Of a DNA stretch of 64,000 nucleotides, positions 26,464 through 52,935 are shown piece after piece. Position numbers and translations under genes: made by a program. The stretch spans positions 5,857,001-5,921,000 of the forward strand of contig NC_092577.1 of NCBI RefSeq assembly GCF_037975245.1. The letters run 5' to 3'. The DNA comes from Apostichopus japonicus. Taxonomy: Eukaryota; Echinodermata; Holothuroidea; Aspidochirotida; Stichopodidae. The notes under the pieces are model-generated. The model did not search any database, was not told the DNA's origin, and worked only from the letters and a program-made list of their open reading frames with translations. The first letter of the stretch is position 1; each line of letters starts with the position of its first letter.

Positions 26464-29400
26464 TTACATTCCTCCGTCCATTGTAGTAGTGAGGCTTAGC
26501 GGAATTAGATCATAAGCTTTTTCAACAGACTGTATGGCCTCTCTTTTTGTGAATGTAGACCAATCTTCAGGGATATCGGCCTCAACACAACTATAGTGTT
26601 TTGCAAATTTTCTGTTAAATCTGTTAAAAATGTATTTCCAGAATTCGTTCGGTTCATCAACTTTACTGGGAATATTCCAAGTTGGATAATCTTCCTTGTA
26701 TTCACTATAGGGTCTGTAGTCAGACTTCGGGGAAACAGACGTCATATAACTTGCAAATGCATAAGTACATACTTTAACTAACATCGGCCAAGTCCAATCA
26801 TCTCCCTTGTTTTCACTGTACGGTCTAAAGTCAGCCTTCGGAGACCTATACCTCAATTGACTTGCAACTGCAGAAGTGCATACTTCTATAAACAGCTTCA
26901 TAGATTCTACATTACGCCAACCCTTTAGCCCTCCCGGGTAGTGCAGCTCTGTTTCATGAAATTCATGACCCTCAAGTGTATTTTCACAGACTGCTCCACA
27001 AAATGGGCACTGCTCAGTACAACCTTTAATGATCTGCGCAAGTTCGATGTGTATCTCTCCGGGCAGTGACAAAAGCCATGTCTTTGTTTCATCCATGTTA
27101 CCTTTATAAGGAAGGATTATTGACTCCTCAAGTTGGGGTTTTAATTGCTTTAGTACAATCCGCATGGAATCTTCAAAGTTTTCAAAGTTCTGTACCTCTG
27201 TTAAGTTTGCAATGTCGTCTAATGTATTAACACTACAACATGTTTTGCAATAAATCCTCAGATTCTTTTGGAAAAGCTTTAGCCAAATTTTTAGATTTTT
27301 AGCTTCTGATTGAAACTGACCCATGGTTTCATCAAGAACTTTCTTTGCATTTGTTGTGAAGAAAAGAATGGTTTCGATTTTTAAAGTTCTGATCATGGAA
27401 TTATCACACTTATTGCATTCGTTTGCTATGAAGTCCAAAATCCATTTCTCTGTGAAGCTATCATAGTTCTCAAAGAACTGAGCAAATCCTAAGTAATCAC
27501 TTTTTACGCAAAGGTCTCTCAAGACCGTTCCAATAAATATTCGCTTCAAATTAAAGACATCTGACTTTACAAAGAAAAACTCTCTTAATCGATGGACAAA
27601 GCTTTCTTCAGTAACTCTCACTACCGAGTTTACCATTGCTTTCCCAACAATTTCACCCACGAGACGATCACAGTTTTCACTGTTTTTTGTCTTTTGTATG
27701 GCTAGACACAAAATTGACTCTTCATATGTAAATGTGTTAGCAATGTTCTGCTTTCTTTTTTCCTCAAATTTCTTCAGAGATATCACGTCTGAAGACCATG
27801 CAGATATGTGTGCGGTAGCAGCAGCTCTTACTATTTCAGCATCACTACCATCGATGGTAGCTTTTTGAATCAATTTGAACATTTCATCTAACGTTCTATT
27901 AAAGTCAAACGAAGATTTTGAAAGTGCTCTGCCTATCACTGTCATTTTCGCTTCAGTTATAGTGCTGTTGATGCTGTTCATATCTTCTGAAGAAAGAACA
28001 GGAAGCATATTAATAAAATACCTGTCAAGCCTTTGTAGCGTGATAAGATTGAATGGGAGAAGTGCAAACTTTGTGATATTTGAAGCAGTCATAACTTCTC
28101 TGAGGACAATCATGTCTGTATGGGAGCACACCTTCTCAATATTTGAGAGAAAAAGACAAGCCTTGCTCTCTAGAAAAGAGTAGTCTAAAGGCTGTGCCAG
28201 TTTTTTTTCATAGTCGGCTTGATCGAAGAACCATCTAGTTTTTACATTGATTTTACTTTCACTCGATTGAATGTCATCAACTGAAAGAGCTTCGACCTCT
28301 TTTAAGTGAGCTTTGTGGACTTCAGAGAGGAAATTGGAGCCAAAGTATAAATACATTGTCAATCTTTCAACAATACCGCTAAATTCATCTTCAAATCCAT
28401 TCAATAAGACGCAAAGTTTCTCAGAGGAAGCAGCAATGTCATGAGGGTTGGAAGTCAAGTTTTTTATTTTGGAATGAACTTTGTCAAATATAACAGAAAT
28501 GTCTTCATTTTTAACGTTGAAGTTATCATTTATGTTTCTGATATTATTAGATGTTAAATCAGTTTTGTGTGCATTGGCACAGTCAGAAAGTGATCTGTTT
28601 GTTAATAATGACTCGACTTCTTTGCCGCATTGCCTTAATTTGCAAAGCATGTGTTTTTCCGTATTCTGTTTGATATCACATAACTCGTTCAAGGGATATC
28701 TTCTTTGCATCTTGTTAAGGAACTCTTGTTTGGTTTGGTTAAAAGATTCCGTACTGTCCTCTGTGTTTTCCTCAAGCATATTAATGAAAAGTTCCCTCGC
28801 ATTCTTAACTTGCTTGACAATTAACTGTGATTGTTTCACCTCTTCAGTTACTTCTTGGAAGCGTCGCTCTACTGTCTGCAAGAAAAAAGTTTTATTCGAC
28901 TCGATATCTTGTTCAAAGTAATGCTTTTGCTCCTGTAAATATTTATATTTTGGTGATTGCATCATTTCTGAGACCTTTTGCTGAAATGCTTTCATTTTAT
29001 CGCTGGCAGTCTTACAGAGAACATCCAGTTGTATAACTTTAAGGTTCTCAATATCATTTGACGAATCGTACCTTAGTTCATTACACGCTAATGCGAGTTT
29101 TTCAGAAAGGCCCTGCAACAGGTTTAAGAGCATGCCCCGGTACAATGTTACAAACTCGTGGTTGAGTTTTTCAGCGTTGGTATCGTGAAAATTCTCTACA
29201 AAGCTGCTAGTCTTAAGCGCTTTACCAACATCAGCGAGGCGTTGACAAAATCCATTAAATGACATTTGAGGACGATTGCATTTCTCTAAGAGTTTTAAGA
29301 TATACTGCCGAAGAGCAAGAGCATCTGAAGATTTGTGTTGGTCTTTGCTTGATAAAAATGTTTTACTTGGTCGTACTGTAAACGCGCATCTCTCATGTTG

Positions 29401-32400
29401 GAAAAAGAAAATATCGCTAATATTTTGATTTGAGATTTCAATACCGTCACTCTTAAGAATTTCCTGTAAGTACTTAAGTGTTTTTCTGAATACTTTGTCG
29501 GAATGATATTCTCCATGAACTTTGCTAAGATTTTTTTGAGCATGGTTGACCAAACAACATTTTCCTGACTTATTTACTTCCTGCATTCTAAGAATGCTCT
29601 TTGAAATAGTTTTCATAAACGTATTGTTATCCTCTGTGCACATTTCTTCCGTCACGTTAATGAGAACGACATCAGCGAGACAAGTAGCTAAGGAACAAAT
29701 AAAGTTGTTTCTCTCAATATAATCTGGAGATGAAATTTCCTCGGTATGAAAACTTTCTGTGTTTAGTATCAGTAGAAAGTCATATGGGATGTTTGCATTT
29801 TTAGCATTTCTAACCGGCAATAGTTGCACGAGAACGCCATCTCCGTTTTTACAGAATGAGAAGTTTACTCCAAACAATTGATTAATTAAGGAAGTCTTTT
29901 TGGTTTCTTTGCAGCCAATAATCGAAACAACACAAACCTTAGAATCAGCTATGGATCTGCTTTGCAGACTGTCAAATACTTTTTCCAACCATTTGATCCC
30001 AATTGTATTCGTATTACTGTGACAAAGTGGCAATGAAACGCCTCTTTCAAACAAATGAGCAAATTTTTCGGGATATGTTTCATTATCGGATGCCAAATTT
30101 TCGCTACGTGCGAACCTTGGATGATCACATTCCACCATTTGTCCAACCTCGTGTACTAAATCATTTACATCAAACTTGTTATTTGTACCCTCTTCATGGT
30201 GTAAAACCTTCCCTAGCCAATGATCAGGAAAGGTTTCAAGATACCTGTAAAGCAAGTAACTGTTTTTAATTTCACTGTCTAAGCAAGTCAGGAAGATTTT
30301 CAACGGCTCACTCAAACTCGAGTTTTTCTGCAGATTTCTAATTTCGCGTTTCCTTTTTAATTTGTTAGAGACTTCATGTTCAACACCTTCGACTCCAATC
30401 TCTTCCCTGTCTACTACCACCCATTTCCTCCAAAGGTCTTGAAGTGGAAATATTTCTTGCCGTGTTCTCCCTTCTCCTTCTACAGCATCAACGATGTTGT
30501 GAGAAATGTCTTTGGTACTCTTACAGTTTGGATATTCGTCATCAACATCAATGTCTAACATTTCACAAATCTGCGGAAACATTGCGAATGAAATCTGCTT
30601 ATCTGTAAGTACAGTTTTTTTTATGTGACTTAATAAAATGTGACCCAGCTGCGATCTTATGGCGGGTTCAACAACGGTAACATTTTGAGTTGATTGGAAT
30701 GCAACCAAAGCGTCGGTGTGAGCTGAAACCAGAATAACGTTTGAGGATTCACTTATTTCTTTGACCCTTTTCTGAGCTTCGTCATTTAGGGTGGTTTCCA
30801 CAAACAGAATAACAGTGCTTGACACTTTACAGCAAAATTGAGCTTGTTCTTTGTGATTGAAAGAATCACCATGCAAATTTAGAACAGCCAAGGGTACTGT
30901 GATATCGTTTTCCTCTTGTGTTGGTAAGTACCAAGCACATTCAACGATCCCTTTAGAAAAAGCATTGTCTTTATCCTCTGATAGGTATGCCTTACAAGGT
31001 ATATCAGAGTTGCTCATTGCTGAAAGCATCTCATTAAGAACCTTAGTCTTAGAAACACTTACCTTTCCAATCCTAAAACATGATATAGTGACAAATAGCT
31101 GGTTAATGATACCTGTTACATCTTCTGTGCTGGTGCATACATACGACCTTCTTAGACCATAATGTAGTAAAACGGGGTTTTGATGTAACCTCGGAAGTAT
31201 GATTGGCACAGCTTTTCCAGTTAAAGATAAGTTGCGTAATACCTCTTGGAGAAGGTGAATATCACAGCAGGTCAATATGGCAAACAAAATATCTCTGATT
31301 CCATAATCTCCATTTGTCATTCCTTTGGCTTCTTTCAGGGTTTTCAAATGGTCAGAAAGATCTTGAAGTGCAGTTTGTTGGCCTAACGAGAGGCGATTTA
31401 GAAATGTCTGTATGATGTCTCGGCGATCATTGGTGTTCAAGTCTTCTTTGATCATTCGTTGGTCTCGAAGTGTTAACTTTGATGTTTCATCCAAACCAAG
31501 AAAACTTAACAGGTGTTTGAATTCCTTTTCCTCCTTTGAGATTGGTTCTGAGAGAACAAAGTCCAACTATTAAAAAGTAGTTGTCCTGTGGGGCTGTGTA
31601 TATTCTCATCCTGTTTAAATTATTCTGGGATCTTATCATTTAGTTTAAATACCCTACCGGACAAAATCACCATTTAATCATATATCCCATACTCTGTACA
31701 GGACAAGTGCTTACAGTTGTCTAAGTACAAAATACTGATAAAAGGGAATTGAGACTTGATATTCTGCTTCATTACAACACGACGATATTCCAGGTGTGAT
31801 GGAAAATTGCCTTAGCAGATAATGCTCAGATGAAAAGATTAGATGCTCAAATCCATGACTGTTGTTATTACAGGAGACTAACATGAGACACCATTTGCTT
31901 GACTCTTTATTCAAACGAACTATATTATGGTAGCAAACACAATGACTGGATTATTGGGGCAATTCAAGGAATAACAACTGAAGGGATAGCGTATCCATAT
32001 GTAGGCCTATGCTTCAATGTACAGTGACGCAATTTTTATATAACTTTGAAATTTTGTATAACTGGGATGTCTAAATTAAGGAGGATTGTTTCTTATGACA
32101 GGTTGTAAGAGACCGATAGTCGTTAATACATAAAAAGTTATACCACTGTACATTTTTAAGGACACTCACTCCGCCCCTTAAATGACACAGTGTAATAGAC
32201 ACATACCGAAGTAATATCAATGGAAGTTTTATGCAATAACGATTCTTTAGGTTTTTTAAACCTGAATGATTACAGAAAAGGATTTTAGCTTACCGTGGAT
32301 TGGTAACACATGTTTGACTATAATGTATCCTAAGCCGACAACGACAGCTCCGTTAATTGGTATAATTAGGTCTTCAAAAGCTGTGAAATAAAATGATATC

Positions 32401-35400
32401 TTTGGTCTCAGTTACTCTGAAGCCTACGAGTCGAATTCTGTTTTTAAGCAGATATATTCCTTCCAATATTATTGGTGAATGGATTAGGTCCATATTTTAA
32501 ATGAATACGTTTCCTTAACTGTGTCTGTTTTACGTGAAAAGGAAATTCTGAAATCGCAGTCGTTGTGACTCTATAAGTTGATAAACAAAACAGAGTAGCC
32601 TACTACCTCTTATCAATAACATACTGTTACCAGTTTTAACAAACTAACGACTACACAGTACATAAAACATATCGTGGCACACTGGCCCACCTATGTCGGG
32701 GGCCTCGGGCCCCTTCATATGCTGTAACTATATTATTCATACAGCACAGCTGAGTGATCACTTGGTCAATGCACTAAGTTTACATTTTATTTGAGATGAT
32801 ATTGTAAATACTGATGCAGATGTTCGCTGTAATCCAAACATGCGTAGCATAGGAAACACATTTTTGACAACAAGAGGCCGAAATATAGAGGCCATTTTAG
32901 TAATTTCTAGATAAGAGGCTAATTTTCGAAACACTTTTTAAAACATGTTACAACATACAACATATGTGCCGCATATTGTGGGTGCCTTTCATTTTGAAAA
33001 CTCCAAGTGACAATTAAGTATTCCAGTCCGCCCCTGAGTTATGGACTTGCGTGCCACACAGCCCCCGCCAACTCACCCCAAAGGAAAAAAAATGAAATGA
33101 CATATTTAAGTATTTAAAAACACACTGTAAGAAAGGAATATTTTAATACGGTAGCATTATTTGCATCTTAATCCCAGGCCTGAATGACAAACGAGAGTCA
33201 CATGAGACACAAAAATATTGAAAATGTGGTAACAAAAAGAAAACAATTTGACCATAACAGGATCAAGGAGTAACCAATGTAAATTAATAAATAAATAAAC
33301 TATAATAATATAAAGAGTGGGGCACCAGCAATCAAGATAAAATTTCTTTTTTCTTATAACATGACAAACCTTAATGCGTTCTCGTAAAGAAGGACGAATT
33401 GTCATGGACTCGAAATTTCGTTTTTGAACAAAAAAAAACTGTATATTGAGATCATAAGCTCACTTATACTGTCCAACATATGCTGAAATGCTATGAAAAG
33501 GTCACTAATGCGGAAAAGTAAACACATATTTTAAGGTTTATTTCTCTATCCCCCCCTCCCCACCCGTATAGGTTTAAATTGGCAATTGTTAGCATTAGGA
33601 GATTTGAAGCGGGACATATGCATACGATTAACTTTCATCAGTCAATTAAAATCGGACACCTCAACCCCATTAAACGTTTTTTTTTTAATTAAAGCAGCAT
33701 TTTGCGTTGAGTCGCCGTTTTCCTCAATTTTTCCGTGTCTATCAAGTTTTTGTCATAATACAATCACAAAAAAACAAAACTAAGGCTTTTTCATACTTTT
33801 TTTGCCCACAGCAAACGTTAATTAGCAGTAATTAAAGCTTTTATATGATTCTGAGATGAGTGTCTCCCTGACACATCGAATCATTTAGTATTTATCACAT
33901 GCAGCTCAACAAAACCGCCTATTCAAATTAAACCAAACAGTGAAGAGATGTTTATGAAGAGATGTTAAAATAGACTCATTCATTGGCATGGTAATCCCTT
34001 GCTGCAAAGCACTATTTAAATCTCCACGTGGCCTAGCCAATATGCCTTATTGCATTCCCTTATGAGAAACGTTACTTTCCTCTCCTGAAAAAACGTTGTT
34101 TTCTCCCATGTTGTTAGAGGAGGATAATAAGGTTTTCAAGAGTGGAAACTAACGGGTCCGGAAACTAACGGCCCCGTTGCGCTACACTGACAGTTACATT
34201 GCTTTTAGTGCACAATGCACAGCGTGTACATAACGTTTTTCAGGCCAAACCAGTGTAAGTCACACACGAATAGGTGTGATTGTACTACAGTAACTAGTCT
34301 ATGTAACACCGAGTAGAGTGACACAATATCGTTCTCGCGAATGTTACGTACCGATCAGGTTCTTCTGGTTCCATGACTTTCTCTCTTATGTATCCTTGCT
34401 GTTTTTTTTTTTCGTCGTTTGCAATGAGATATGGCGTAACAACATGTCCCTTCGCGCAGTACGTACATCTCCACAGCTGATTTTTGTTTACTGTTTACCT
34501 TGCTATTCTAAGTACCTTGTCCGTTATACATATTCACAAGGTTCCTATAAGTGGGAGGAGTCTATCAAAGTCAAAGATTCAAAATACGAAAATCAGAAAA
34601 TGTAATATTTTTTGCACTTGTCGGGAATAGTTTGAGTTGAAACTTTAGAGTTAGCTTAGTTTACGTCATTGGTATAGTATCCTAGTATTGAAAAACCTCG
34701 AGAATCAACGCAAATTGCTGCTTTAACATTGTCAAGCGATACAAATTTTATATATATATGTCATTAAAAGAAAGATAACTCACAAAACTGGGTCATTGTA
34801 AGGTATGCAAATATGCTAACTGCCACGAATAGGGCGAAGCGGATCTTCTTTTCATTCGGTCGTCCATGCTCTGGTTCCTAATATTTGAGATTAAAAAACG
34901 TATTGTTCAATAAACTGGATAATTTTGAGGAATCATTGTGAGCATATTATGTTGTTGGTGCGTGATACAGTTGTTTTCAATGACACTTTACGGTGTTGTA
35001 ACACAATTAATTGTTGCATTGACTTAATGCATTCAATTCATCGGTTGCCAAAACCGTTAGAGCATAAACATATTAATCATAGACATATTCTACTGACATT
35101 TCCTATCAACCATATATGATAGCTGGTAGCTGATAGTGCGTAGCCTGTCGTAGCACATTCCATTTTTGCCCACCGCTTGTTTGTGTTATTTATTAAACAT
35201 TCTGCTTCTTAATCGCCAAAAAAAACACAATAAAAAACACTTACCAACAGGTTTAGTAAGTGGTTGATCAATCCAAAACTAACCACAGCTACAGCAAAGG
35301 CAGGTGTAAGTAGCAACTTCATAAACAATATATCTGCAATTGGCATGACATGATAGAAAATGACAAGGTCACCATGCCATGTTTAAACTCGTACAGCGAG

Positions 35401-36038
35401 CACGCATAGCTTAATAACGACTACATAAGGGGGTATGGACAGTTATGGTCCACGTCATTTTTTCTAAAAGTCGGTTTGGATACCATTATTTATCTTCATA
35501 TCGGACAACATAAAATAAGTACAAATTAATCATAAATATAATGAGAAATATTCAGGATAGCCATAATTAAAAGAGAAGATTCATTGAATGGATAAATTAA
35601 TACAATAATTAAAGCATACCGTTAAATTCTGACATAATGCTAGAGACTAAATCAAGTTTTCATTTTTTTTAATGTCCGAGTCTATTACTTACAACAATCA
35701 ATAAACGTATATGTAATACAAGTTTTGAGTAGTTATAGAAGGGAATAATGTTTTCAAATGTCAACATATCATGTTTTAAACAATGTACAGCGTAACATAC
35801 ACCATAATGATATGTAAGTTGTACGTTTACAAATTCCAAAACACCATATGATTGTATAGCAGTGCACATTGTATTTAAAAGTAACAAACAAAAGTGAAAT
35901 TTATTTCAACTCATTTCTGCTTTGATGGTCTAGAATATTTATGTATAATCTCTAAGTTTTTCCTATTTTTTAAATGGTAAGTGAATGTATTGAAAGTATA
36001 GGATACTTACAGAATCCTTCGCTTGCTTTTTGGTCCAT
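26464..36038 (-). CDS. VLIG/GVIN-like giant pseudo-GTPase with N-terminal membrane anchor, copy A
   Basis: Five exons on the minus strand: 36038-36011, 35333-35245, 34877-34784, 32380-32294 and 31547-26464; 1,793 aa. All introns are GT-AG and phases agree (1,0,1,1). Exons 2-4 each encode one hydrophobic segment (about residues 12-34, 52-70, 74-92). The last exon begins at residue 100. It holds an URGCP-like N-terminal module (ILPRLHQNPVLLHYGLRRSY; GKVSVSKT at about 260; LNLHGD), then a VLIG-type G domain (VVSIIGCKETKKTSLINQLFG at about 642) and a long helical region. It ends with a C-terminal Cys/His cluster (CTEQCPFCGAVC, then HEFHETELH). Known VLIG proteins are interferon-induced, cytosolic and about 2,400 aa. 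Here the P-loop glycine, RCTRG and DTEG are lost, so GTP hydrolysis is unlikely. A 37-residue tandem duplication lies near the C-terminus. The Met at 31566 is intronic read-through and not the start. Confidence 0.85.
26674..26893 (-). repeat. 37-residue tandem duplication inside copy A
   Basis: The protein reads VCTSAVASQ, SPKADFRPYSE, then VCTYAFASY, SPKSDYRPYSEYKEDYPTW. The second block repeats the first with substitutions. Copy B has a single block at this place (52620-52725), and vertebrate VLIG proteins also have one. The duplication therefore happened in copy A after the two genes split. The reading frame is preserved (111 nt). Confidence 0.85.
26990..27027 (-). other. Conserved Cys cluster of the VLIG C-terminus (copy A)
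   Basis: Encodes CTEQCPFCGAVC, spaced C-x3-C-x2-C-x3-C, followed about 10 residues later by several histidines (GHEFHETELH). The matching VLIG motif (CPFC..PC...H) is a family hallmark. Zinc binding is an inference from the spacing. Confidence 0.7.
29890..29916 (-). other. Degenerate P-loop (G1) of copy A
   Basis: Encodes GCKETKKTS where GxxxxGK[S/T] is expected: the glycine before the lysine is a lysine. The same change is present in copy B (49588-49614). The DTEG (G3) equivalent is NTES at 29763-29752, and a VNHAQKN stretch at about 29550-29530 stands where VLIG proteins have FVHQNV. Confidence 0.8.
32294..36038 (-). other. Membrane-anchor exons 1-4 of copy A
   Basis: Exon 1 encodes MDQKASEGF. 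Exon 2 encodes a helix containing LLLTPAFAVAVVSFGLI. Exon 3 encodes EPEHGRPNEKKIR, then FALFVAVSIFAYLTMTQF. Exon 4 encodes LIIPINGAVVVGLGYIIV, then KHVLPIH. They align exon by exon with copy B: exon 2 is 89 nt in both, and exons 3 and 4 are each two codons shorter here. Substitutions between the copies keep both the frame and the hydrophobicity. This is strong evidence that the exons are real although they are too short to show up as ORFs. Confidence 0.8.
32381..34783 (-). other. Long intron 3 of copy A
   Basis: 2.4 kb, against 1.0 kb for the same intron in copy B. No coding sequence is recognised. It holds a C-rich run (33551-33562), a short duplicated motif (actaacgg near 34150 and 34164) and several A or T runs. 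The extra length probably comes from an insertion, but I could not find clear ends. Confidence 0.5.
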
Positions 36039-37669
36039 CTTTCATACATTTGTTAGACAAATGATAAATAGTTAAGTGATGAAAAAAACAACTTGCAAGT
36101 CTTCTATCAGCTGCCAACATACCGTTATGCTTCCATTGCCACTGTATGTGAGTCTATAAACGTATTTCAAAATAGTCACTGATATTTATACCATGTCAGA
36201 GTAGGATGTCGAGCGTGTTAATTATGACTCTACTTTCAATCCCCAAATCGTCAGCAGCTGAAACTGCGCATACTCGCTGAACTATGAACCTCATATAGAT
36301 GAAATACGTTAAAAGTGCCTATCAACAGAAAAAGAAACGTTTTTTTTACTCAGCAGAAATCAACTCGTCAAGATTGTAAATATATAGTTCTTGACTTTCG
36401 TCACACAATGAGCTCGAAATAGCTCATGAATGTTTTGTTCACCATCAAATGAAGAAATATTGAGCGGAATAGATTCAGTTTTCATTGATATTTTTTTTCT
36501 GCCGCCCACTTTTCATAGTAAAGTATACATTAAAACATAGTATTATTGATTTACACGCTTGAAAAGAAAATGAATTTTAGTATCGAACAGGTTCGTCTAA
36601 AATCAATTTCAATGATGGAGCTATATAACCGCATGGCTTGTAATATTCTTATTTTCAATATTTAACTCAGGTTCATCCAAAACATTGAATATTATTGGCA
36701 AAATGTCCGTGGCCAACGTGTGCGCAACGACGTGTACATCCTCTTGCCAATAATTCAATCAAGGGATCAGCCATTCCCTAACTTACAAGCAGAAAACCAT
36801 CAAAGTTCCCTAATTTAAAACTAGCATGTATTTACGGTACAAATTAAAGGTCTACGGACATCTATATGAACATCATTGTCATAATCTCCCATCGACATCA
36901 TTCAAACATTAATCATTTTTCTTTCTCTTCCTAATTCTAGTTTTATATATAAATAAGCATTAGCTAATTATGCACATTGATGCTGTAAAGGTAGTGGCTG
37001 CTTTATTTTCTAATATGTTATTACTTTGTTTTTAAGGCCTTTGTTTCAAGGACACTGAACACAGGTTTGTAGCCTAATGCAAGTTTTTAAAATAATTTAT
37101 TGTCTACCTTGAAATGAGGAACATCACATTATTCAAATGATTTGTGTGGTCTTGTAATTAGGCCTGACATAAGAAACTTTGATGAGCGCAAAACTCTATG
37201 TCATAGTTTGCATATATTTAATGAGTTTCCCAAATTTATCAAACCTTCGGATGTATTCATCTTGGAAAAAAAGTAATTTCAACAAATTTGACAGATTTTG
37301 AATGAAATTATCACATCCAACAAACGTACTGAATATGGGGCGAATTGGCTAGGTTTCCGTAGTACTTCAAACAGTCAAAACCGATTACGCTTTGTTTTTC
37401 AAAAAGTTCAACAATATATTAAGACCACATTAAATCCATGCTTTCTCCTTTTTAGAAGCATTTCTCAGAGAGAGAGAGGACACCACTCCTCTAAAATTCC
37501 CCCTCCTGCAAAAAAGAAAAGAAAAAAATAATCCTAGTCCAAAAACAGTTGGTAGCACGCATAATTCTGACCCAGATCCCCTGCCAATTAATATATCAGG
37601 GAAATTAACGCTTCTTCACTTGAAAACAGAATACAAAAAATAATAGTGTACAATATACATGAAAGTGAA
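36039..37669. other. Upstream region of copy A
   Basis: Expected to hold the promoter of copy A. I see no clear TATA box, and no obvious similarity to the sequence upstream of copy B, so the two promoters have diverged or were never both copied. At 36670-36755 two short inverted copies of attattggca flank about 65 bp, which may be the ends of a tiny element. Confidence 0.4.
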
Positions 37670-39115
37670 ATTTGTTATCATGGTATGTGAGAATTGGAGA
37701 GTATGGGTGAGATTGTGAGAGTATGGCATGGTATCATGGAATGTTAGCATGGTATGTAAGAGTTGGAGAGTATGTGAGGGTTTGTGAGAGTATGGTATGT
37801 TACATAGTATGTTATCATGGCATGTGAGAGTATGTGAGAGTTTGTGGGAGTATGTTATGGTACCATGCATGGTATGTTATCATGGTATGTGAGAGTTGGA
37901 GGGTAAGTGAGAGTTTGCGAGAGTATGGTATGGTACCATGGTATGTTAGCTTGGTACGTGAGAGTACGTGAGAGTTTGTGAGTGTATGGTATAATGATAT
38001 GTTATCATGGTATGTGAGAGTTGGAGAGTATATGTGATATTTTGCGAGAGAATTGTACCATGGTATGTTAGCATGGTGTGTGAGAGTTTGTGAGAGTATG
38101 GTATGGTATCATATTTTATCATGGTATGTGAACGTTGGAGAGTATGTGAGCGTTGTGGGAGTATCGTATGTAGCTTGGTATGTGAGGAGTTGGAGAGTAG
38201 GTGAGCGTTTGTGAGAGTAAGGCATGGTATCATGGAATGTTATCATGGTATGGGAGAGTTGGAGAGTATGTGACAGTTTTTGAGAGTATGTTATAGTATT
38301 ATGGTATGTTATCATGGCATGTGAGAGTATGTGAGAGTTTGTGGAAGTATGTTATGGTACCATGGATGGTATATTATCATGGTATGTGAGAGTTGGAGGG
38401 TAAGTGAGAGTTTGCGAGAGTATGGTCTGGTACCATGGTATGTTAGCTTAGTATGTGAAAGTATGTGAGAGTTTGTGAGAGTATGGTATAATGATATGTT
38501 ATCATGGTATGTGAGAGTTGGAGAGTATGTGATATTTTGCGAGAGTATTGTACCATGGTATGTTAGCATGGTATGTATGAGTTTGTGAGAGTTTGGTATG
38601 GTATCATATTTTATCATGGTATGTGAGAGTTGGAGAGTATGTGAGCGTTGTGGGAGTATGGTATGTTAGCATGGTATGTGAGGAGTTTGAGAGTAGGTGA
38701 AAATTTGTGATAGTATGGTATGGTATCATGGTATTTTAGCATGGTATGTGAGGAGTTGGAGGGTATGTGAGAGTTTGTGAGAGTATGGTATAGTATCATG
38801 ATATGTTAGCATAGTATGTGGAAGTATGTAAGAGTGTGTGAGAGTATGGTATGGTATCATGGTATGTTATCATAGTATATGAGAGTTGTAGAGTATGTGA
38901 GAGTTTACGAGAGCATTGTACCATGGTATGTTAGCATGGTATGTGAGAGTATGTGAGAGCCTGTGAGAGTCTGGTATGGTATCATATTTTATCATGGTAT
39001 GTGAGAGTTGGAGAGTATGTGCAAGTTTGTGAGAATATGGTATTGTATCATAAAATGTTATGGTATGTGAAAGTTGAAGAATGTGTGAGAATTTTGTGAG
39101 AGTATGGTATGGTTC
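37670..39115. repeat. Minisatellite, ~1.45 kb
   Basis: Tandem, higher-order array built from catggtatgtgagagttgg, agtatgtgagagtttgtgag and agtatggtatggtatcatgg blocks. They combine into units of roughly 80-100 bp that are themselves repeated with variation. All ORFs here (Ser/His/Thr-rich on minus) are products of the array. It lies in the spacer between the two divergent VLIG-like genes. Confidence 0.95.
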
Positions 39116-41321: not shown

Positions 41322-41985
41322 AATTTATCTTCGTGATTAAAAGCGTTTATCTACAAACTAACTAAATAAAAAAAAACATAACTTATGTTGTATTTCATGT
41401 CTTCTTTTTGTTTTGCCTCCTCGTATCAATATTTACAAAATGTTGGGCTTGAACGGGTCATTCTAGTCACGTTCTTGCGAGAACAATAAATGATATAAGG
41501 TTTTTTTCTTCGAAAGTTAGTTTCATGGATGGCTGCGAGATCTCAAATTAGAGAGGTCACGATTTAATGGGACAATCGGTAATACTTGGCGCTATTACTA
41601 TACTAATGCTAAGTACAAGCATTTGAGCCTTCAGCCTTTGCCTTTAGTCTTCATTGCATTCAGCCCTGAGCCTTCATCCTTGGCCTTGAGCCTTCGTGGA
41701 TTGCTGCGAGATCTCAAATTAGAGCGGTCACGATTTAATGGGACCATCGGAAAGACGAGGCGCTATTACTATACTATGTTGAGCACAATAAACGAAAGCA
41801 TTGTTGACTCTGTAACCTTGTTGCTGAGTTTTAGCTAACGATTTTGAAAATAACTTAAACATGTTATTCTTTCAAAACTTCGTACCAATTGGGTCGCCTT
41901 GTAGAACTTCATATTACATGAGCATTCCGATCTTTAATTGGTAATCTCAATAAAGTCTTCGTGGTGTGAATGGGGAAAACTCAAA
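41322..41985. repeat. Direct repeat, copy 2
   Basis: Shorter copy of 40009-40997 with fewer internal units. Differences lie mainly in the number of inner repeats, as expected from unequal exchange. No coding sequence. Confidence 0.8.
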
Positions 41986-44900
41986 TGTTTGTTTCTGTAA
42001 ATGAACTAAATCCAAAATGAAATCTATCTATCATTGCCATCATTTTAAATGCATTTCTACGGAACAACGTTTAATGTGGACGACTTTATGTAGATGTTGG
42101 TGTTTTTTCTTACCGTCTCCGTTCGTCCCCGAAACTTCCTGTTGTGTGGGCGGGGATGTGACCCCTGGCTACTCCACTGACTCTCATCTCAGTGCATATT
42201 CAATGGAACATTCTTAACTTAAGTTATCATGTGAATAAAACTAAAAAAGAAACTTGTTTCGAAGAAGTAACACTAAGAACGAACCTTTATTTAGTTAATT
42301 GTTTGGTAAGAATTGATATAAAATATTTTATTATGTCATTCATGAAATATTGATGTAAGAATAATGGCTTGATTGAGTTGAATAGCTATACATTTCACTG
42401 GTAATTAACGAGATGGATTTCTTACGTTTACAGTGATTGTAAAGTTATTGGTCACGCGTGCAATTAGCATAATCGTTCTTCAGTAAAGCTGCTCCCATTA
42501 ACAGGAACCTTCGTCATGCTTGTCGGTGCCAATTATTAAAACGTCCAGTAACAAAGAAAATAACTTAGTTTGGAATAGGTCGACGGATGTGTAATGGGAA
42601 CCGATATCATTGTGATTCACCATCTGCATCAAATCACTTGTGATTCAGCAGGAATTTTGCTAAAGACAGCTACTTTCAACGTAATCCGGAAATATTATAT
42701 GAAAATGTTTTCGAAAACAACGGAAACAAATGAGATTGTTATTTCCATTATATGATCTAAATCCTGTTTTACCAGAAATGGGTTTTTACTTGATAGTGTG
42801 ATGGAAATGACCAAAACGTTTGCAAATTGTGTGCACGGCAGAAGTTTTGATAAAGAGGGCGCTCGTTTACTGAATTATTCAGCAACAAAGATCGGCTTCG
42901 CCAAAAATTTAATATAGACCGAAACACTAGAAGATGATTATACATAATAACAGAAATGAATAACCCTGAAGAAGTAGTGTGTTGTAAAGTAAGAAGATAA
43001 AATTATACTTAGTTACAGCTAAACTGAAGTTAATACGTCAAAACACCTTAGTTTTGAGTAGACATTTTGTTCGGCTAGGTGCTACATTTCCATGGCAATT
43101 TGGATTACCATTTGACTATAATCAAATTGAAATCTAAACAAAGAAATTCAAAATCGGGACTGTTGAACATTACTTATTTCCGTTTTAACGTGTGATTAGT
43201 AGGCTTATTTAGCTTGATAGTGTATGGGCGACGAAGTGTTGAGAACGAGCCCTTGGTTACTCAGGCTCGTGAACCAAGTTCGTTTGATAAAGACATACTG
43301 GAGGTTAAGGTGACATAAAACTGTCACAAAACACTGCTTACCCGCCCTCCCATCGTTCATTCTCTACCATTATAAATTTCTCATTCCTATTATCACACAT
43401 CAAGTCCATCAACACCCACCCCCCACCTCTGATCATAATCACTCTCCATTACTTCTCCCGGTTAACCTGCTTTAATAATAAACCCATGTCTCCCAGCCCA
43501 CTGATTTCCTTAATCTGTTTGCCGCCTCTACATTTCATTTAACCATTCCCTCTTTTCTTTGCCTAAGTTGGTTCTGGTCATTGTTGAATGGTACTTGTTT
43601 TTAAAAGTGATTTACAAAGCGAAACCAAATACGTCACGGCTTTAGCGATACTGCGGGCTCAAATAGACCAACAAAGAACCAAACCGTAGAAAAAAAACAC
43701 ATCTTCCCACACACCATCCTCCCGTGGTATTCACACATCTAGTACTACCAAATTCACCTACGGGCGGCCCTCCCGCCCGCTAACAAAATGCTTCGGTCCT
43801 AACCACCATAACAAGAGGTCATGACAATACTTCACCGCTGCATGAACCACGGATGGGGATTTCACACGAAAAACAACATCGCACCTATTGCGCCATACAT
43901 GTTTTTTGAGCACAACTGAAATTAACGATACTGTATGAACTAACACTAAAAACCCATTGTTGAATGATCCCGTTGACCTCTTTGTGCATATAACTTTCTG
44001 ACATGATATCCTTGGTGTATTTCTTGTCTTAGCCTCTGAAGAAAATTATTGTGAGATCGAAACGTCAGATTGTTCAGTGATGTCTTATTTATTATCAAAT
44101 GTAATATATTTTGTATTACTTCTTTATTGGATTGTCCAAAATAAGTACCCAAACATAAACATAACCTAAACTGAGACGTCATTGGCATGATGCACGGTTT
44201 GGTTGATACACCAGGCGTTCCATGCTAAAGAGAAACCCATTAGGGAATCGGGAAACCACTGTTGTCATAAGGATATCGGTAACAGTGCTTCCTGTTGTGA
44301 TTTTCCTTTCTCTTTGAAATATCTCTTGAAGAAAAATCGCACTTTAGACCTAGGCAAAACAAAATGTGCAAATATGAATTGTTACTAGCACCAGGATCCC
44401 TGTAGGTTAAACAACATTAACGTATCCTGCCCCTATGATGTATCTTTTCGGTTCAGAAAATGTTGAATAATGCAGTAAATAGATTGAACTGATTATTGAA
44501 TGGAGTCTTCTTTTCTTTCAATGTAAACCTATATTGGCTTCTGCAATAACTCGTACCTTAGTTATGCTTAGGTCATCTGTTCACCCTTTTGAAGCCTTAC
44601 ACTATCTTATTCACACATATTCGCAACATAAATCATACATATGTGTTTTGATGGCGCGGTGAAGGTTGCACAATACCATGATTATACTATAGCTCATAAA
44701 GGCATTGAACATTTTCTTACAGACAAAAACATTTCTTTGAAAACGATAAAATCGTGGATGTGGCGTTTTGTTTCAACACATTTCAACACATTCGTACTAT
44801 TGGTCTAAGATAATATATTAAAACGACTGACATCGTGTGGTACTGAGCATGTTGAGATAAACGGTACACATTATGTAAACAAATGGTTACGTGCACGTTC

Positions 44901-45253
44901 CCTGATGTTATATCAATTCAATGTTAAAAATTAATAATTTGTTTGCTTGATGCACATACTGTTATCATGCAATCTCTGTATAAGAGGTTCATAGTGTCAC
45001 AAACATCCCCATTGAACTAACACTATCGTTTAGAGACGTGTAATAAAGTGCGATTAATTTAACGCGCAAGTCCATTACATTTATTCGAGTTCTTTCCATG
45101 GTTAACGGACGTGTTTGATAAATAAACGAGGAATTACCCACTGGAACCATTTAGAACATGTACAGTCACTTTGTTCGGTTCAATATCGCAAAAACTGTAG
45201 AATGACATAGTATTAAACCAAGATTTATTCTTTCATTTCACAACTTATCCAAT
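41986..45253. other. Spacer upstream of copy B
   Basis: No gene recognised. A C-rich stretch occurs near 43400-43440. Around 44030-44075 the plus strand has ctctgaagaaaattattgtg followed by atcgaaacgtcag, which resembles a phrase common in Penelope-like and other retroelement debris; no element could be delimited. The last few hundred bases should contain the promoter of copy B. Confidence 0.4.
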
Positions 45254-47730
45254 ATGGACGAAGAAGACCACAACCAGAATCGTGGTAAGTCACATTAAAA
45301 TGAAATCCTTATTTAGGTACTCGACCGAGGTCCTCAACAGAGGTACCACGATAGTTGGTTTCTTTGTTTGTCCTATTAAGGCTGGAAATTAAGGGTGATT
45401 AACAAATCGTGTTTTTATATGTGTGTTTATTGGTTTCGAGCCTAGTAAATAAATACTGCAGATTATGTGATGGGTCAAGTTTTTTTGATAATGTGAGAAT
45501 GTGAGAATGTAAGAATGTGAGAATATAAGAATACATATACAAGAATATATATACGAATGCATATAAGAATACATATATAAGTAAACATATGTAAGAATTT
45601 AATGTGTTTCATTTCTAAGAACCTAACGTACCCATTACCATTTCTTCCCAGATGTATCCGCTTTAACCTTGTTATTAATCCCAGCTTTTACTGTTGCAGC
45701 GATTAATCTAGCATTCTACAACCGGATAAAAAGTCACCTGGTAAGATTGCTTGAAATTTTATTTATTTATATATCATTGTTGATGTCTTGAATATGCTAA
45801 ACATTGATCACAGCGGTGGCGCACTAATACGGTTGGTCACATATTGGACGTAAAGTGAATAACATATTCCAGTGTGAATTCGCATATATTCTAGCATTAA
45901 TTCGAATATAATCCGGTATTAAATTTGATTATATGTCGGCAGTAATTTGAAAATATATGTGAACATCTCCCCATATAATGGAATTAATGTTCAAATTGAA
46001 TGATGACATACACACGTGACTTATGAATGGCTAGGAATATCGTTGTACATTAAAATGAACTGATGTCGACACGTATTCGAATTAATATCGTCATAGATTC
46101 TCCATTGATATCCTCTGTTCCAAACCATAATCCCTACAACGTTGTACAACGATGCTTGAAATAAATTTAATCTGCCAGTTTGAACGGTTCCTCGTTTGAT
46201 TATGAAGATAATAAACCAACAACGTGTCAAATTGTAAACAGTTCCCCGGATAACTCTGAAATACTGTTGGCTAACCAACGTATATTGAATCATACCGAGC
46301 AGTAATTGCGAACGTAAGCTACTTTCCTTTTGCAAGATACGGGGTGGCTTTGCTGACGCATGTTAAGACGTGTAATTCAGTAGCACGAACAATGACATTT
46401 ACTTATTTAATTGTGGTCGTCTTTTCCGAAACGGTTTTCCCATATCATCCGTAAATATAAAAATTGTTACATTCAATCTTTTTCTTATATTAAACTACAG
46501 TCATTGTCTTTCGATTAATTTTAGGTTCCAGAGCCCGGTCACCAAAACGATGGAAACAAGAAGACTCGTTTTACAATATTTTTTGCAATTAACATATTTG
46601 CATACTTATCAGTCACACAAATATGTAAGTATTAAACATTGTCCTTCTTTGTAACAAAGTAAATGAATATACGCATACAGTGCTTTGATTATTCCTTTTA
46701 TTGCACAACATGATATTTAAAGATTGGATGAGTACATAGATAAATATTCATAGGATTAAAAGATTCGGTGTATTGGTTCAGTTGATAAATAAATAACCAG
46801 TTTTATTGAGTAAGATAAAACCAGTATTGTATGATGTATTCCATTCTCCCGGTGATAACTTGAGCAGTAAGAATATTGAAATGTTTGTCTCTTTGTCTTA
46901 TCAGTGTGTTGCTGTGGTTGTTGTTGTAATCAAATGCAATTATAATCCGGTTACCCCGTTGAAGAGATCCAACATGAAAGCTACAATAAACGTATTTATT
47001 GAAACTACTCATCTATTAGGCCACTTTTGATAATCTTATTGGTAATTCATTCCAGAAAATGGTAATGAATATGTGTCAGTTCAAGTGAGGTTTTCATGTT
47101 TAAATATTAAATAGATGGCTTGTCAGAACTTGCCCTTTATTTAATGTCAACTCGGTTATGACCTCAGCTCCTTTGTAATGTTAATCCATGATTTGTATTA
47201 GATTTGCCAATATTTACAACACAGAGTATTCTTTTACTCTTGCTTAGTCAATGTTATTCCCAAAGATAATCTTAACACGACAAGTACTTGCACATTATTA
47301 AACGATATGAAAGAAAATTTAGTATGTATTGTCAACGTTGTAATGAGTTGAGCTACAAACCTCGACTAGTCATTTTCAAAGCAAATAAACATGTAAAAAG
47401 TATCTGCTGCTGCAGTGTGTGCCTCACTCTCCAAACAGTTCACTCCTTATTTGATATAAACGGAGTAGCTCTCAACTTTATTAATTCCAATATTACATTG
47501 ACAATTATGAAATAATTGATCGTGACAAGATGCATTGTCTTCGTGCCTTCCCTAGCCTTCCCTTTTTCCCTATTCAATAATCCCGACATCACATAACATG
47601 GGTTTTACGTACATATATGTTTATTTTTTCTTCTCAGTTTTTGGCGGATTATATTTACCCATCTTTCTATGCCTGACAATCTCGGCAGCCGGTGGCTACT
47701 TAATTGCCAAATACATGTTTCCCGAGCATG
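45254..47730 (+). other. Membrane-anchor exons 1-4 of copy B
   Basis: Exon 2 contains LTLLLIPAFTVAAINLAFY. Exon 3 contains VPEPGHQNDGNKKTR, then FTIFFAINIFAYLSVTQI. Exon 4 contains LPIFLCLTISAAGGYLIAKY, then MFPEH. Segments 2 and 3 are separated by only a GG-containing turn. Intron lengths (367, 784, 1013, 205) differ from copy A (677, 367, 2403, 746), while exon boundaries are the same. The short frame from 47598 past the donor at 47731 is intronic read-through around exon 4. Confidence 0.8.
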
Positions 47731-50700
47731 GTAAGTTGAAAACTCGAAGTATTTCATGGCATCCTGGTAGCCATGCTGGCTATGGTGTGTCTATTCTTAA
47801 TAAACCACCCAGCATAGCTTATAGTTCTTTTAACAAAATATGATCTTTGTGGAGAAAGATTGTTTTAGCGTATGCTTAGTAACATTTATTCAATTGCTCG
47901 AGACAGCTTTTTATGTACCATATCTTTATTCTCAGAAACAATACTTCCAGAAGTACCCATAGAAGAGGACAAGGATTTTACACACCTGTTAGGACTCCTT
48001 GGCTTGGATGAAGCATCAAAGTTAACCCTTCAAGATCAACGAATGGTCAAGGACGACTTGAATACTAATGATTGCCGAGACATTATACAAACGTTTCTTA
48101 ATCGACTTTCGTTTGGTCAACAAACTGCAGTTCAAGATCTTTCTGACCATTTGAAAAACCTTGAAGAAGTCAAAGAAAAAAGCAATGGAGATGACGGAAT
48201 CAGAGATATTTTGTTTGCCATACTGACCTGCTGTGATATTCACCTTCTCCAAGAGGTATTACGTAACTTATCTTTAATTGGAAAAGCTGTGCCAATCATA
48301 CTTCCGAGGTTACATCAAAACCCCGTTTTACTGCATTATGGTCTACGTAGGTCTTATGTATGCACCAGCACAGAAGATGTGACAGGTATCATTAACCAGC
48401 CATTTGTCACTATATCATGTTTTAGGTTTGGAAAGGTAAGTGTCTCTAAAACAATGGTTCTTAATGAGATGCTTTCAGCAATGAGCAACTCTGATACGCC
48501 TTGTAAGACATACCTATCAGAGGATAAAGACAATGCATTGTCCAAAGGGATCGTTGAATGTGCTTGGTACTTACCAACACAAGAGGAAAACGATATCAAA
48601 GTACCCTTGGCTATTTTAAATTTGCAAGGTGATTCTCTCAATCACAAAGTACAAGCTCAATTTTGTTGTAAAGTGTCAAGCACTGTTATTCTGTTTGTGG
48701 AAACCACCATAAATGATGAAGTTCAGAAAAGAGTCAAAGAAATAAGTGAATCCTCAAACGTAATTCTGGTCTCAAATTACACTGACTCTATGGTACCTTT
48801 CCAAAAAACTCAAAATGTTACCTTCGTTGAACATACTGCCGCCATAAGACCGCAGCTGGGTCACATTTTATTAAATCACATAACAAAAACTGTACTTACA
48901 GATAAGCAGATTTCATTTGCAATGTTTCCGCAGATTTGTGAAATCCTAGACATTGATGTTGATGACGAATTTCTAAATTTTAAGAGTGCCAAAGTAATTT
49001 CCCACAATATAGTTGATGCTGTGGAAGCAAAAGGGAAAGCACAACGGGATATATTTCCACTTCAGGACCTTTGGAAGGATTGGGTTGAGGTAGACCGGGA
49101 AGATATTGGAGTCGATGGTATTGAGCATAAAATCTCTAACAAATTACACAGGAAACGCGAAATTAGAAATCTACAGAAAGACTCGAGTTTGGGAGAGCCT
49201 TTGAAAATCTTCTTGAGTTGCTTAGACAGTGATATTGAAAACAGTCACTTGCTATACAGGTATCTTGAAACATTTTCTGTCCTTAGGCTAGGGACGGTGT
49301 TACAGAATGAACAGGATACAAATATTAAGTTCGATGTAAATGATTTAGTACACGAGGTTGGACAAATGATGGAATGTGATCATCCAAGGATCGCACGTAG
49401 CGCAAATTCTGCAACAGATAATGAAACATATCCCGAAAAATTTGCTTATTTATTTGAAAGAGGCGTTTCATTGCCACTTTGTCACAGTAATGCGAATGCA
49501 ATTGGGATCAAATGGTTACATGAAGTATTTGACAGTCTGCAATGCAGATTCATATCTGATTTTAAGGTTTGTGTTGTTTCGATTATTGGCTGTAAAGAAA
49601 CCAAAAAGACATCCTTAATTAATCAATTGTTTGGAGTAAATTTCTCCTTTTGTACAAAAGGAGATGGCCTTATTGTGCAACTACTGCCGGTTAGGAATGC
49701 TAACAATGCAAACATTCCATATGACTTTTTGCTAATACTAAACACAGAGAGTTTTAATATCGAGAAAACTTCATTTCAAGCTGATATTGAGAGAAACAAC
49801 TTTATTTGCTCCTTGGCTACTTGTCTCGCTGATGTAGTTCTCATTAACACGACAGATGAAATGTGCAAAGAAGATAAGAAAACGTTTATGAAAACTATTT
49901 CAAAGAGCCTTCTTAGAATGAAGGAAGTAAATAAGTCAGGAAAGTGTTTTTTGGTCAATCACACGCAAACCAATCCTAGCAACAGCGATTGGGAATATGA
50001 TTCTGACAAAGTGTTTAAGGAGACAATAAATTATTTACAGGAGATTCTTCAAAGTGACGGTAATGAAATCTCAAAACAAGATATCAGCGATATTTTCTTA
50101 TTCCAAAATGAGAGATGCGCGTTTACAGTACGACCTAGTGAAACATTTTTATCGAGCAAAGACCAACATCAATCTTCAGATGTTCTTGCTCTTCGGCAGT
50201 TTATTTTAAAACTCTTGGAATCATGCACTCGTCCTCATATGTCATTTAATGGATTTTGTCAACGCCTCGCGGATGTTGATAAAGCGCTCAAAACTAGCAG
50301 CTTTGTAGAGAACTTTCAAGATACCAACATTGAAAAACTCAAGGACGAATTTGTAGCATTGTACCGGGGAATGATCTTACAAATAAGGCAGGACCTTTCT
50401 GAAAAACTTGCATTAGCGTGTAATGACCTTAGATACGGTTCGTCAAATGATATGGAGAACCTTAAAAGTAAACAACTGGATGTTCTCTCTCAAACTGCTA
50501 GCGATAAAATGAAAGCATTTCAGCAAAATGTCTCAGAAATGCTGCAATCTCCGAAATATAAATGCTTACAGGCGCAAGAGCATTACTTTGCACAAGATAT
50601 CGAGTCAAATAAAGTTTCTTTCTTGCAAACAGTTGAGCAATGCTTGCAAGAGATAACAGAAGAAGTGAAACGATCTGAGTCTATTGTCAAGCAAGTTAAG

Positions 50701-52935
50701 AATGCGAGGGAACTTTTCATTGAAAAGCTTGAGGAAAACACAAAGGACAGTACGGAAACTTTTGAGCGAACCAAACAAGAATTCCTTAACACGATGCAAA
50801 GAAGATACCCTTTGTACGAGTTACGTGATATCCAACAGAATACGGAAGAAAACATGCTTTACATATTGAAGCAATGCGGCAAAGAGGTCGAGTCATTATT
50901 AACAAACAGATCACTTTCTGAATGTGCCAATGCACAGAAAACATCTTCAACATCAAATATTATCAGAACCATCAATGATAACTTCAATGTTGCAAATGAA
51001 GACATTTCTATAATATTTGACAAGGTTCATTCAAAAATAACAAATATATCTTCTAACCCCCATGAAATTGCTGCTACCTCTAAGGAACTCTGTGTCTTTT
51101 TGAAAGAATTTGAAAATGAATTTAGCGTTGTTGTTGACAGGATAACTATGTATTTATACTTTGGCTCCAATTTTCTCTCTAAAGTTCACGAAGCTCACTT
51201 AAGAAACGACATCAAAGCTCTTTCAGTTGATGACATTGAATCTACTGACAGAAGAATCAATGAAAAAATCACAAGTTTATTCAATCATGTTGATTATGAA
51301 ATAAAACTGGCAGAACCACTAGACTACACTTCCCTAGAGAGCAAGGCTGTTCTATTTCTGTCAAATCTTGAGAAGGTGTGCTCTAACTCAGACATGATTG
51401 TCCTCAGAGAAGTGATGACTTCATCAAATATCACAAAGTGTACACTGCTTCCCTTCAATCTTATCACGCTACAAAGGCTTGATAGGTATTTTCTAAGTAT
51501 GCTTCCAATTCTTTCTTCAGAAGATATGAACAGCATCAACAGCACTGTAATTGAAGCGAAAATGACAGTGATTGGCAGAGCGCTTTCGAAAGCTTTTTTG
51601 GACTTTAGTAGAACATTACATGAAATGTTCAATTTGATTCATAGAGCTATTATCGATGGGAGTGATAGTGAAAAGGCAAAAGCTGCTGCTCTCGTACACA
51701 TATCTGCATGGTCTTCACACGTGATATCTCTGAAGAAACTTGAGCAACATAGAGTTCAGAACATTGTTAACACATTTTCACATGAAGAGTCAACTTTATG
51801 TCTGGCCATACAAAAGACAAGAAACTTTGAAAACTGTGATAGTCTCGTAGGTGAAATTGTTGGGAAAGCTTTGGTAAACTCGGTAGTAAAAGTTGCTGAA
51901 GAAAGCCTTGTCCGTCGAATAAGAGATTCTCTCTTTGTAAAGTCAGAGGTCTTTAACTTGAAACGAACATTTATTGGAACGGTCCTGAGAGACCTTTGCG
52001 TAAAAGGTGATTACTTAGGATTTGCTCAGTTCTTTAAGAACTACGATAGCTTTACCGAGAAGTGGATCTTGGAGTTTATAGCAAACGAGTGCAATAAAAG
52101 TGATAATTCCAATATCGAAACTTTAAAAATTGACATCATGCGTTTCTTCATAACAAAAACAAACAAAGTAATCGAAGAAACTATGAAACAGTTTGCATCA
52201 GAAGCTAGCCAAAGTCTTAAAATGTGGTTAGAACTTTTCCAAAAGAATATGAGGACGTATTGCAAAACATGTTGTAGTGTGAGTACATTAGACGAAATGG
52301 CAAACTTAGCAACAGTGCACAACTTTGAAAACTTTACAGAGTCCATGCGGATTGTACTCAAGCAATTAAAATCTCTGCTTGAGGAGTCGATAATCCTTCC
52401 TAAAAGAGGTAACATGGATGACACAAAGACATGGCTGATGTCACTGCCCGGACAGATACACATCGAACTTGCCCAGATCATTAAAGGTTGTACTGAGCAG
52501 TGTCCATTTTGTGGAGCGGTCTGTGAAAATACCCTTGAGGGTCATGAATTCCATGGAACAGAGCTGCACTACCCGGGAGGGCTAAAGGGATGGCATGAAG
52601 TAGAATCTATGACGCTGTTTATAGAAGTATGCACTTCTGCAGTTGCAAGTCAAATGAAGTATAGGTCCCCGAAGTCTGACTTCAGATCCTACAGTGAATA
52701 CAAGGAAGATTATCCGACTTGGAATATTCCCAGTAAAGTTGATGAACCGAACGAGTTCTGGAAATACATTTTTACTAGGTTAAACAGACAATTTGCAAAG
52801 CACTATAATTGTGTTGAGGCCGATATTCCTGAGGATTGGTCTAAGTTCACAAAAGAAGAAGCTATACGGTCCGTTGAAAGAGCGTATGATCTAATTCCGC
52901 TAAACCTCACTACAACATTGGACCGAGGAATGTAA
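45254..52935 (+). CDS. VLIG/GVIN-like giant pseudo-GTPase with N-terminal membrane anchor, copy B
   Basis: Five exons: 45254-45284, 45652-45740, 46525-46624, 47638-47730 and 47936-52935; 1,770 aa. All introns are GT-AG with phases 1,0,1,1, identical to copy A. Exon 1 encodes MDEEDHNQNR. Exons 2-4 encode three hydrophobic segments (about residues 13-33, 56-75, 78-98) with a basic linker (GNKKTR) before the second. The 5-kb last exon starts at residue 105 and parallels copy A throughout: URGCP-like module, VLIG-type G domain with GCKETKKTS and NTES, long helical region, and CTEQCPFCGAVC cluster. It lacks copy A's C-terminal duplication. In a 195-residue sample after the N-terminus I count about 14 differences from copy A. 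The frame is open over 5 kb in both, arguing for selection. Biochemical role unknown; innate-immune function is only inferred from the family. The Met at 47872 is intronic and not the start. Confidence 0.85.
49588..49614 (+). other. Degenerate P-loop (G1) of copy B
   Basis: Encodes GCKETKKTS, identical to copy A, with NTES at 49741-49752 in place of DTEG. The shared loss means that the change came before the duplication and has been kept. Confidence 0.8.

Follow-up and report, generated by a model that had tools for sequence, protein, structure and literature searches.

We analyzed a window of 64,000 nucleotides (nt) from the sea cucumber Apostichopus japonicus (contig NC_092577.1, positions 5,857,001 to 5,921,000 of the forward strand) that carries two giant genes of the VLIG/URGCP family. 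Two 5-kb open frames, both uninterrupted, lie in it at 26464-31566 on the minus strand (1700 codons) and at 47869-52935 on the plus strand (1688 codons). An earlier note on this DNA had proposed that each frame is only the last exon of a longer gene, preceded by four short in-frame exons with phases 1,0,1,1, and the splice joins bear this out for both. The two frames are the last exons of two divergently oriented genes, A (minus strand) and B (plus strand), whose joined exons 1 to 5 would encode 1793 and 1770 amino acids, respectively, with running phases of 1,0,1,1 at the exon ends in both genes. The donor was GT[AG]AG in all eight introns of A and B taken together, and the acceptor was AG in all eight. 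Equally sound was the view that the copies agree exon by exon while their introns have diverged in length: exons 1 to 4 of A and B differ by 3, 0, 6, and 6 nt, each a multiple of three, versus intron lengths of 677, 367, 2403, and 746 nt in gene A and 367, 784, 1013, and 205 nt in gene B.

The large exons and the loss of the GTP-binding motifs

The features of the two genes are given below. Exon 1 of gene B was placed by its splice join, exons 2 to 4 of both genes by splice join, hydropathy, and the chain search described in the next section, and the motifs by alignment.

36011..36038, minus: gene A exon 1, ATG start and short N-tail (donor GTAAGT, running phase 1)
35245..35333, minus: gene A exon 2, hydrophobic segment 1
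34784..34877, minus: gene A exon 3, charged loop, then hydrophobic segment 2
32294..32380, minus: gene A exon 4, hydrophobic segment 3
26464..31547, minus: gene A exon 5, URGCP domain, degenerate G domain, and C-terminal region with Cys/His motif
29890..29916, minus: gene A broken P-loop, GCKETKKTS versus GIQSSGKST in paralogs
29749..29763, minus: gene A broken G3, NTESF versus DTEGL in paralogs
26986..27009, minus: gene A C-terminal CPFCGAVC motif, of the same kind as in paralogs
26464-26466, minus: gene A stop codon
45254..45284, plus: gene B exon 1, ATG start and acidic N-tail
45652..45740, plus: gene B exon 2, hydrophobic segment 1
46525..46624, plus: gene B exon 3, basic loop, then hydrophobic segment 2
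47638..47730, plus: gene B exon 4, hydrophobic segment 3
47936..52935, plus: gene B exon 5, URGCP domain, degenerate G domain, and C-terminal region with Cys/His motif
49588..49614, plus: gene B broken P-loop, GCKETKKTS
49741..49755, plus: gene B broken G3, NTESF
52501..52524, plus: gene B C-terminal CPFCGAVC motif, of the same kind as in paralogs

Judged by Pfam scores, the large exon belongs to the URGCP/VLIG family, as had been claimed: PF25496 (URGCP domain) scored about 160 bits in A and B (cut-off, 27) and PF25683 (URGCP_GTPase) about 110 bits (cut-off, 55), the latter over positions 108-373 or 109-373 of 396. With the VLIG/GVIN/URGCP proteins, human GVIN1 among them, A and B share these two regions, a body encoded by one giant exon, and the C-terminal CPxC...C...H..H motif, which was present in A, B, a third copy (C, described below), and all 17 of the other local paralog rows that reach that region. 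They differ from these proteins in their four extra 5' exons with three hydrophobic segments and in a P-loop, switch I, and DTEG that are broken.

The extent of this loss was seen against the rest of the family in the 671.6-Mb genome, where we counted at least 61 G-domain loci (80 rows grouped within 3 kb; all such counts are lower bounds). The pattern G[IV]QSSGKST matched at 54 of the 61, with one match outside the family loci and none for a reversed-pattern control, and GxxxxGKST with one changed residue was found at 4 further loci (L036 and L039 among them), so that 58 of 61 keep the P-loop. The three without an intact P-loop are A, B, and C, which read GCKETKKTS (A and B) or GCNETNKTS (C) at this position. 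All 17 of the other paralog rows that span these columns retain GIQSSGKST, CTRG, and DTEGL, and A, B, and C keep none of the three. The best piece of PF25683 scored 283 to 345 bits at 52 loci and 116 to 259 bits at six loci that are broken into pieces, compared with 111 to 114 bits at A, B, and C, where the frame is unbroken across that region. By these motifs, then, A, B, and C have lost the P-loop (G1), switch I, and G3/DTEG of their second G domain. The earlier note had spoken of a GTPase-like scaffold; because this G domain is broken in all three copies, a pseudo-GTPase scaffold is the more likely description.

The first G-like domain has SKS or SKT instead of GK[ST] in all 18 covering rows, including A and B, and, read by this motif, may be inactive family-wide. 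In a tree of 19 rows, A, B, and C formed a single clade on a long branch (Shimodaira-Hasegawa-like approximate likelihood ratio test, 100); L013 came out as its nearest relative, a placement that the long branches make unsure. Frame breaks occur elsewhere in the family: L039 has one ahead of G3. L011 and L020 are broken, like copy C, so the family may be turning over.

The upstream exons and the distribution of the predicted anchor cassette

That exons upstream of each large exon encode three hydrophobic segments, also proposed earlier, was confirmed by hydropathy windows in A, B, and C. We used Kyte-Doolittle windows of 19 residues, the Wimley-White scale, and an approximate insertion-energy scale. 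The best Kyte-Doolittle windows of segments 1 to 3 scored 2.16, 1.64, and 1.98 in A, 2.12, 1.36, and 2.00 in B, and 2.25, 2.09, and 1.43 in C, and the approximate insertion energies of the nine segments (0.35 to 2.93) were all better than that of the best exon 5 window of A or B (3.48). By their best windows, segments 2 and 3 are adjoining or at most a few residues apart and would form a tight hairpin. The N-tail carries charges of 1+/5- in B and C (net -4 in both) and 1+/2- in A, and the loop between segments 1 and 2 carries 4+/2- in B (net +2) and 4+/3- in C (net +1). Under the positive-inside rule, these N-tail and first-loop charges of B and C would place the loop in the cytosol and, with three crossings, the body as well. 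A scan of the gene B N-terminus for known domains gave no match, and that of gene A gave three sub-threshold matches only (best expectation value [E], 0.011), which we took as hydrophobicity matches.

Copy C (C17:6.56 Mb, L009) lies about 650 kb away and has the same exons and phases as A and B. The chain search asked for three exons, each 70 to 130 nt long and encoding a 19-residue hydrophobic window, that are bounded by a pyrimidine-rich acceptor and a GT[AG]AG donor and follow one another in phases (1,0), (0,1), and (1,1); its settings, picked after the exons were known, recover all nine hydrophobic exons of A, B, and C. On both strands of the window it returned two chains, exactly A and B, and at copy C it returned one. 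Upstream of 22 other family loci there were zero chains, in stretches of 2.9 to 4.7 kb (of which a few hundred bases belong to the large exon) that would mostly fit a cassette of the B/C size (2.7 to 2.9 kb) and that in 21 of 22 cases are shorter than the 4.5 kb of gene A. Chance assembly of the exons is ruled out by this search together with the third copy. Since nearly all of the stretches are shorter than the cassette of gene A, and since the upstream search took in 22 of the 58 other G-domain loci and left 36 outside, other family members may carry the cassette as well.

Other searches gave a similar picture. A whole-genome search with the N-termini of A and B found loci A, B, and C only, plus one match at E 7.2; such searches reach close relatives only, and a more distant cassette would be missed, because A and B match each other's anchor exons at E 0.015 or weaker. 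A first scan for hydrophobic exons at 18 loci, run without a positive control, found nothing. A looser scan with controls, which overlooked one known exon each in B (exon 3) and C (exon 4), gave isolated upstream candidates at 8 of the 18 other loci (L011, L012, L015, L018, L020, L021, L027, and L028) and at one of five further loci scanned or rescanned (L031). The candidates at the former were at or above shuffled levels (L020 clearly above), overlapped within single stretches, and formed no chain. A profile of exons 2 to 4 searched against the other paralog loci gave nothing significant (best E, 0.15, at L019). The anchor architecture was thus found at only 3 loci of a family with at least 61 G-domain loci, 22 of the 58 others having been examined upstream.

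Selection, divergence, and the history of gene A

Between A and B, exons 1 to 4 had 0.51 nonsynonymous (dN) and 1.44 synonymous (dS) substitutions per site, with a point estimate of their ratio, omega, of 0.36 (bootstrap, 0.18 to 0.63 in 472 of 500 replicates, the 28 saturated ones being dropped); between A and C, dN was 0.51 and dS 1.10 (omega bootstrap, 0.21 to 0.76 in 499 replicates). Exons 1 to 4 are under purifying selection between A and B. At E 1e-3, the introns of A could not be aligned with any intron of B or C, and the introns of B and C aligned in pieces at 70 to 91%. The values of omega, the multiple-of-three length differences, and the unalignable introns together indicate that the reading frame and the hydrophobic character were kept while the introns of A diverged beyond recognition.

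Omega for exon 5 was 0.41 for A-B, 0.41 for B-C, and 0.51 for A-C, and seven other paralog pairs ranged from 0.30 to 0.56; with exon 5 still constrained, A and B are not simply decaying. In sliding windows, dN between A and B was moderate throughout the G region. The dS of exon 5 between A and B was only 0.26, and the similarity continues for about 545 nt beyond the stop at 74%. Nucleotide identity within this exon was 78 to 90% in the first 250 nt and 92 to 98% from there to nt 600. With upstream exons at a dS above 1 and a large exon and 3' flank at these values, gene A appears to be old in its 5' part and younger in its 3' part. It seems to be a chimera that arose when gene conversion or recombination acted close to where exon 5 begins, in which case the anchor exons of A and those of B and C would be two old lineages of one cassette.

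Some further features of the window and the genome were recorded. A 17-bp element, TATA[AT]GAGGTTCATAGT, lies about 260 to 275 nt before the start codons of A (36281-36297, minus) and B (44979-44995, plus) and is alike at 16 of 17 positions; it is kept only partly in C, and we did not count it as evidence of a conserved promoter. The interval between the divergent genes holds a 1.4-kb degenerate minisatellite (37673-39042) with units of about 60 to 70 bp inside a 497-bp higher unit, and a 231-bp unit occurs in two tandem copies with 98% matches at 20751-21214. On the minus strand lie exons of an UNC-93 family gene (7152-7529 and 8467-9300; E 1.4e-6 and 1.2e-13) and a weak EF-hand match below cut-off (61099-61521; E 0.0011). 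No tRNA genes and no Rfam families were found in the window. The mitochondrial contig reads well under the echinoderm code (AAA Asn, ATA Ile) and has an ND4L-like frame behind cox1, both in keeping with an echinoderm genome. Pieces of COX1 in scattered order were seen on a second contig (G000:C29:14745-31219) and are either nuclear mitochondrial copies or an assembly remnant. The paralogs of the L022-L028 cluster (C17:5.23-5.55 Mb) have an extra N-terminal region with a GSHVSxGPFxxGG-like motif; one of three paralogs scanned gave a sub-threshold MACPF match (E 0.023), a hint of a possible pore-former-like domain on VLIGs.

Possible roles of the predicted membrane-anchored branch

Vertebrate VLIGs are described as soluble and are not known to have a membrane anchor; A and B differ from them in the three hydrophobic segments of exons 2 to 4, a predicted anchor. 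A report on human GVIN1 describes an intronless gene and a model with two large-GTPase domains (PMC11974893), and the word "transmembrane" is absent from the main text of that report. The same report and a commentary on it state that GVIN1 coats cytosolic Burkholderia and needs cofactors (PMC11974893; PMC12133148). No description of a membrane-spanning or pseudo-GTPase VLIG appeared among the titles and abstract beginnings that searches of open-access literature listed. For sea cucumber coelomocytes, a study lists a Gvin1-like transcript that was lower after Vibrio challenge (PMC4519954); no link of it to A or B is possible.

Three other groups of large GTPases invite comparison. The P-loop-intact paralogs have G domains that resembled RHD3 in four of four scanned (over cut-off in three), and L022, the sole one tested against Sey1, matched 5ca8 at E 1.9e-6. 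A and B had no RHD3 match at E up to 1. The two designs, atlastin/RHD3/Sey1 and the predicted A and B proteins, are alike in joining a dynamin-superfamily fold to membrane helices; they differ in the G motifs, broken in A and B, and in the hydrophobic part, which is C-terminal in atlastin and N-terminal in A and B. Among guanylate-binding proteins, which are not known to have a URGCP domain, GBP5 was the best Protein Data Bank match of the A/B G-region profile, at a nonsignificant E of 0.35; no solved structure matched B or the A/B G region at a significant level, and A and B differ from these proteins in having no G motifs. The IRGM proteins are alike by analogy only, as membrane-bound members that regulate effector members within one family. 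They are called GMS after their altered G1 motif, in which they carry one substitution, and their membrane attachment is not known to be through three N-terminal hydrophobic exons; A and B are changed in G1, switch I, and G3, and had no IRG-family Pfam match at E up to 1. Within the IRG family, membrane-bound GMS proteins are described as keeping GKS effectors inactive on self membranes (PMC4837601).

The reading that we favor, with some confidence, is that A and B encode a membrane-anchored, GTP-dead VLIG body acting as a regulator or scaffold. A, B, and C would be a small VLIG/URGCP branch that gained an N-terminal three-segment anchor, encoded by its four small exons, and whose second G domain, canonical elsewhere in the family, lost the motifs for binding GTP. 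Segment 1 would enter a membrane along with segments 2 and 3, the latter two as a tight hairpin, leaving the segment 1-2 loop and the large C-terminal body in the cytosol and the short N-tail luminal or outside. Fixed to a self membrane without GTP cycling, the body could regulate P-loop-intact paralogs or offer them a docking scaffold, a role suggested by analogy, and might bind them via their G domains; taken alone, such binding has no better than an even chance. It might restrain the paralogs on self membranes, as the membrane-bound GMS-type IRGM proteins restrain GKS effectors, or might seed their assembly there, either of which could amount to an immune role.

A number of observations weigh against this reading. 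Exon 5 of copy C has a frame break and a stop (L010, about 3420-3430; C17:6.5599 Mb), and C may be a pseudogene or an assembly error. For exons 1 to 4 of B and C, with a dN of 0.14 and a dS of 0.21, the bootstrap range of omega (0.33 to 1.19) extends past 1. The best exon 5 window of A outscores the weakest segment of each of the three copies by Kyte-Doolittle, and the weakest of A and of C by Wimley-White. The segment 1-2 loop of A (3+/3-) has no charge bias, and in the stretch that follows segment 3, negative charges prevail in B (1+/5-) and C (2+/5-), compared with 4+/4- in A; the topology charges of gene A are neutral and the negative stretch lends no support, so the charges do little to fix the body in the cytosol. 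The Lys and Thr of GxxxxGK[ST] persist in A, B, and C; nucleotide binding by them is nevertheless unlikely, because the second glycine is replaced by Lys or Asn. Partial motif loss is also not confined to the anchored branch, since L036 (G000:C17:34168062-34169231) has an intact P-loop (GIQGSGKST) but CKRG for CTRG and HTEG for DTEG, by these motifs perhaps a second, separate loss of GTPase activity. Lastly, the first methionine within exon 5 (QRM[IV]K[ED]DLNT) is common to all three copies, and translation from it might yield a soluble isoform.

The proteins could instead be anchored membrane scaffolds or receptors unrelated to the regulation of other VLIGs, for instance holding the body and its Cys/His motif at the membrane to recruit other factors. 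The exon structure and its constraint are silent on partners, and CPFCGAVC is intact in A, B, and C, whereas their G motifs are broken. The whole frame of exon 5 is constrained, however, with the moderate A-B dN extending over the G region, which fits contact through that fold without proving it, and we regard a purely unrelated scaffold as somewhat unlikely. More improbable is a start inside or just before exon 5, with a soluble pseudo-GTPase VLIG as the main product and exons 1 to 4 belonging to a minor isoform or to a separate small membrane-protein transcript ending in intron 4. The shared methionine would suit such a start, as would the intronless state of the gene of the human relative GVIN1 (PMC11974893), but the exon 5 acceptor and its phase-1 join are kept in three copies despite a dS above 1 in the upstream coding sequence of A, and in exon 5 the three copies already resemble one another upstream of that methionine. 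That A and B are decaying pseudogenes, their motif loss and odd N-termini being drift, is very hard to credit: the frame break in C and the three lost G motifs would agree with it, but both open frames are uninterrupted over 1700 and 1688 codons, the exon 5 omega of 0.41 is inside the range of the seven other pairs, and every splice site of A and B is consensus.

An anchored, GTP-dead body would matter for what the family may do in this animal. The VLIG/GVIN proteins are a little-understood class of interferon-inducible GTPases, and their function was described as enigmatic until the 2025 report that human GVIN1 makes an antibacterial coat (PMC11974893). Having dozens of possible coat-formers in one cell raises the question of how its own membranes would be spared, and a branch that is both membrane-anchored and GTP-dead would be the kind of part able to regulate or place them. 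In its most specific and unlikely form, the proposal is that of a "self-membrane guard," evolved separately from the mammalian IRGMs, in which a GTP-dead spanning member marks self membranes and checks the P-loop-intact VLIGs. If that were true, the P-loop-intact VLIGs would coat only unmarked membranes, those of pathogens.

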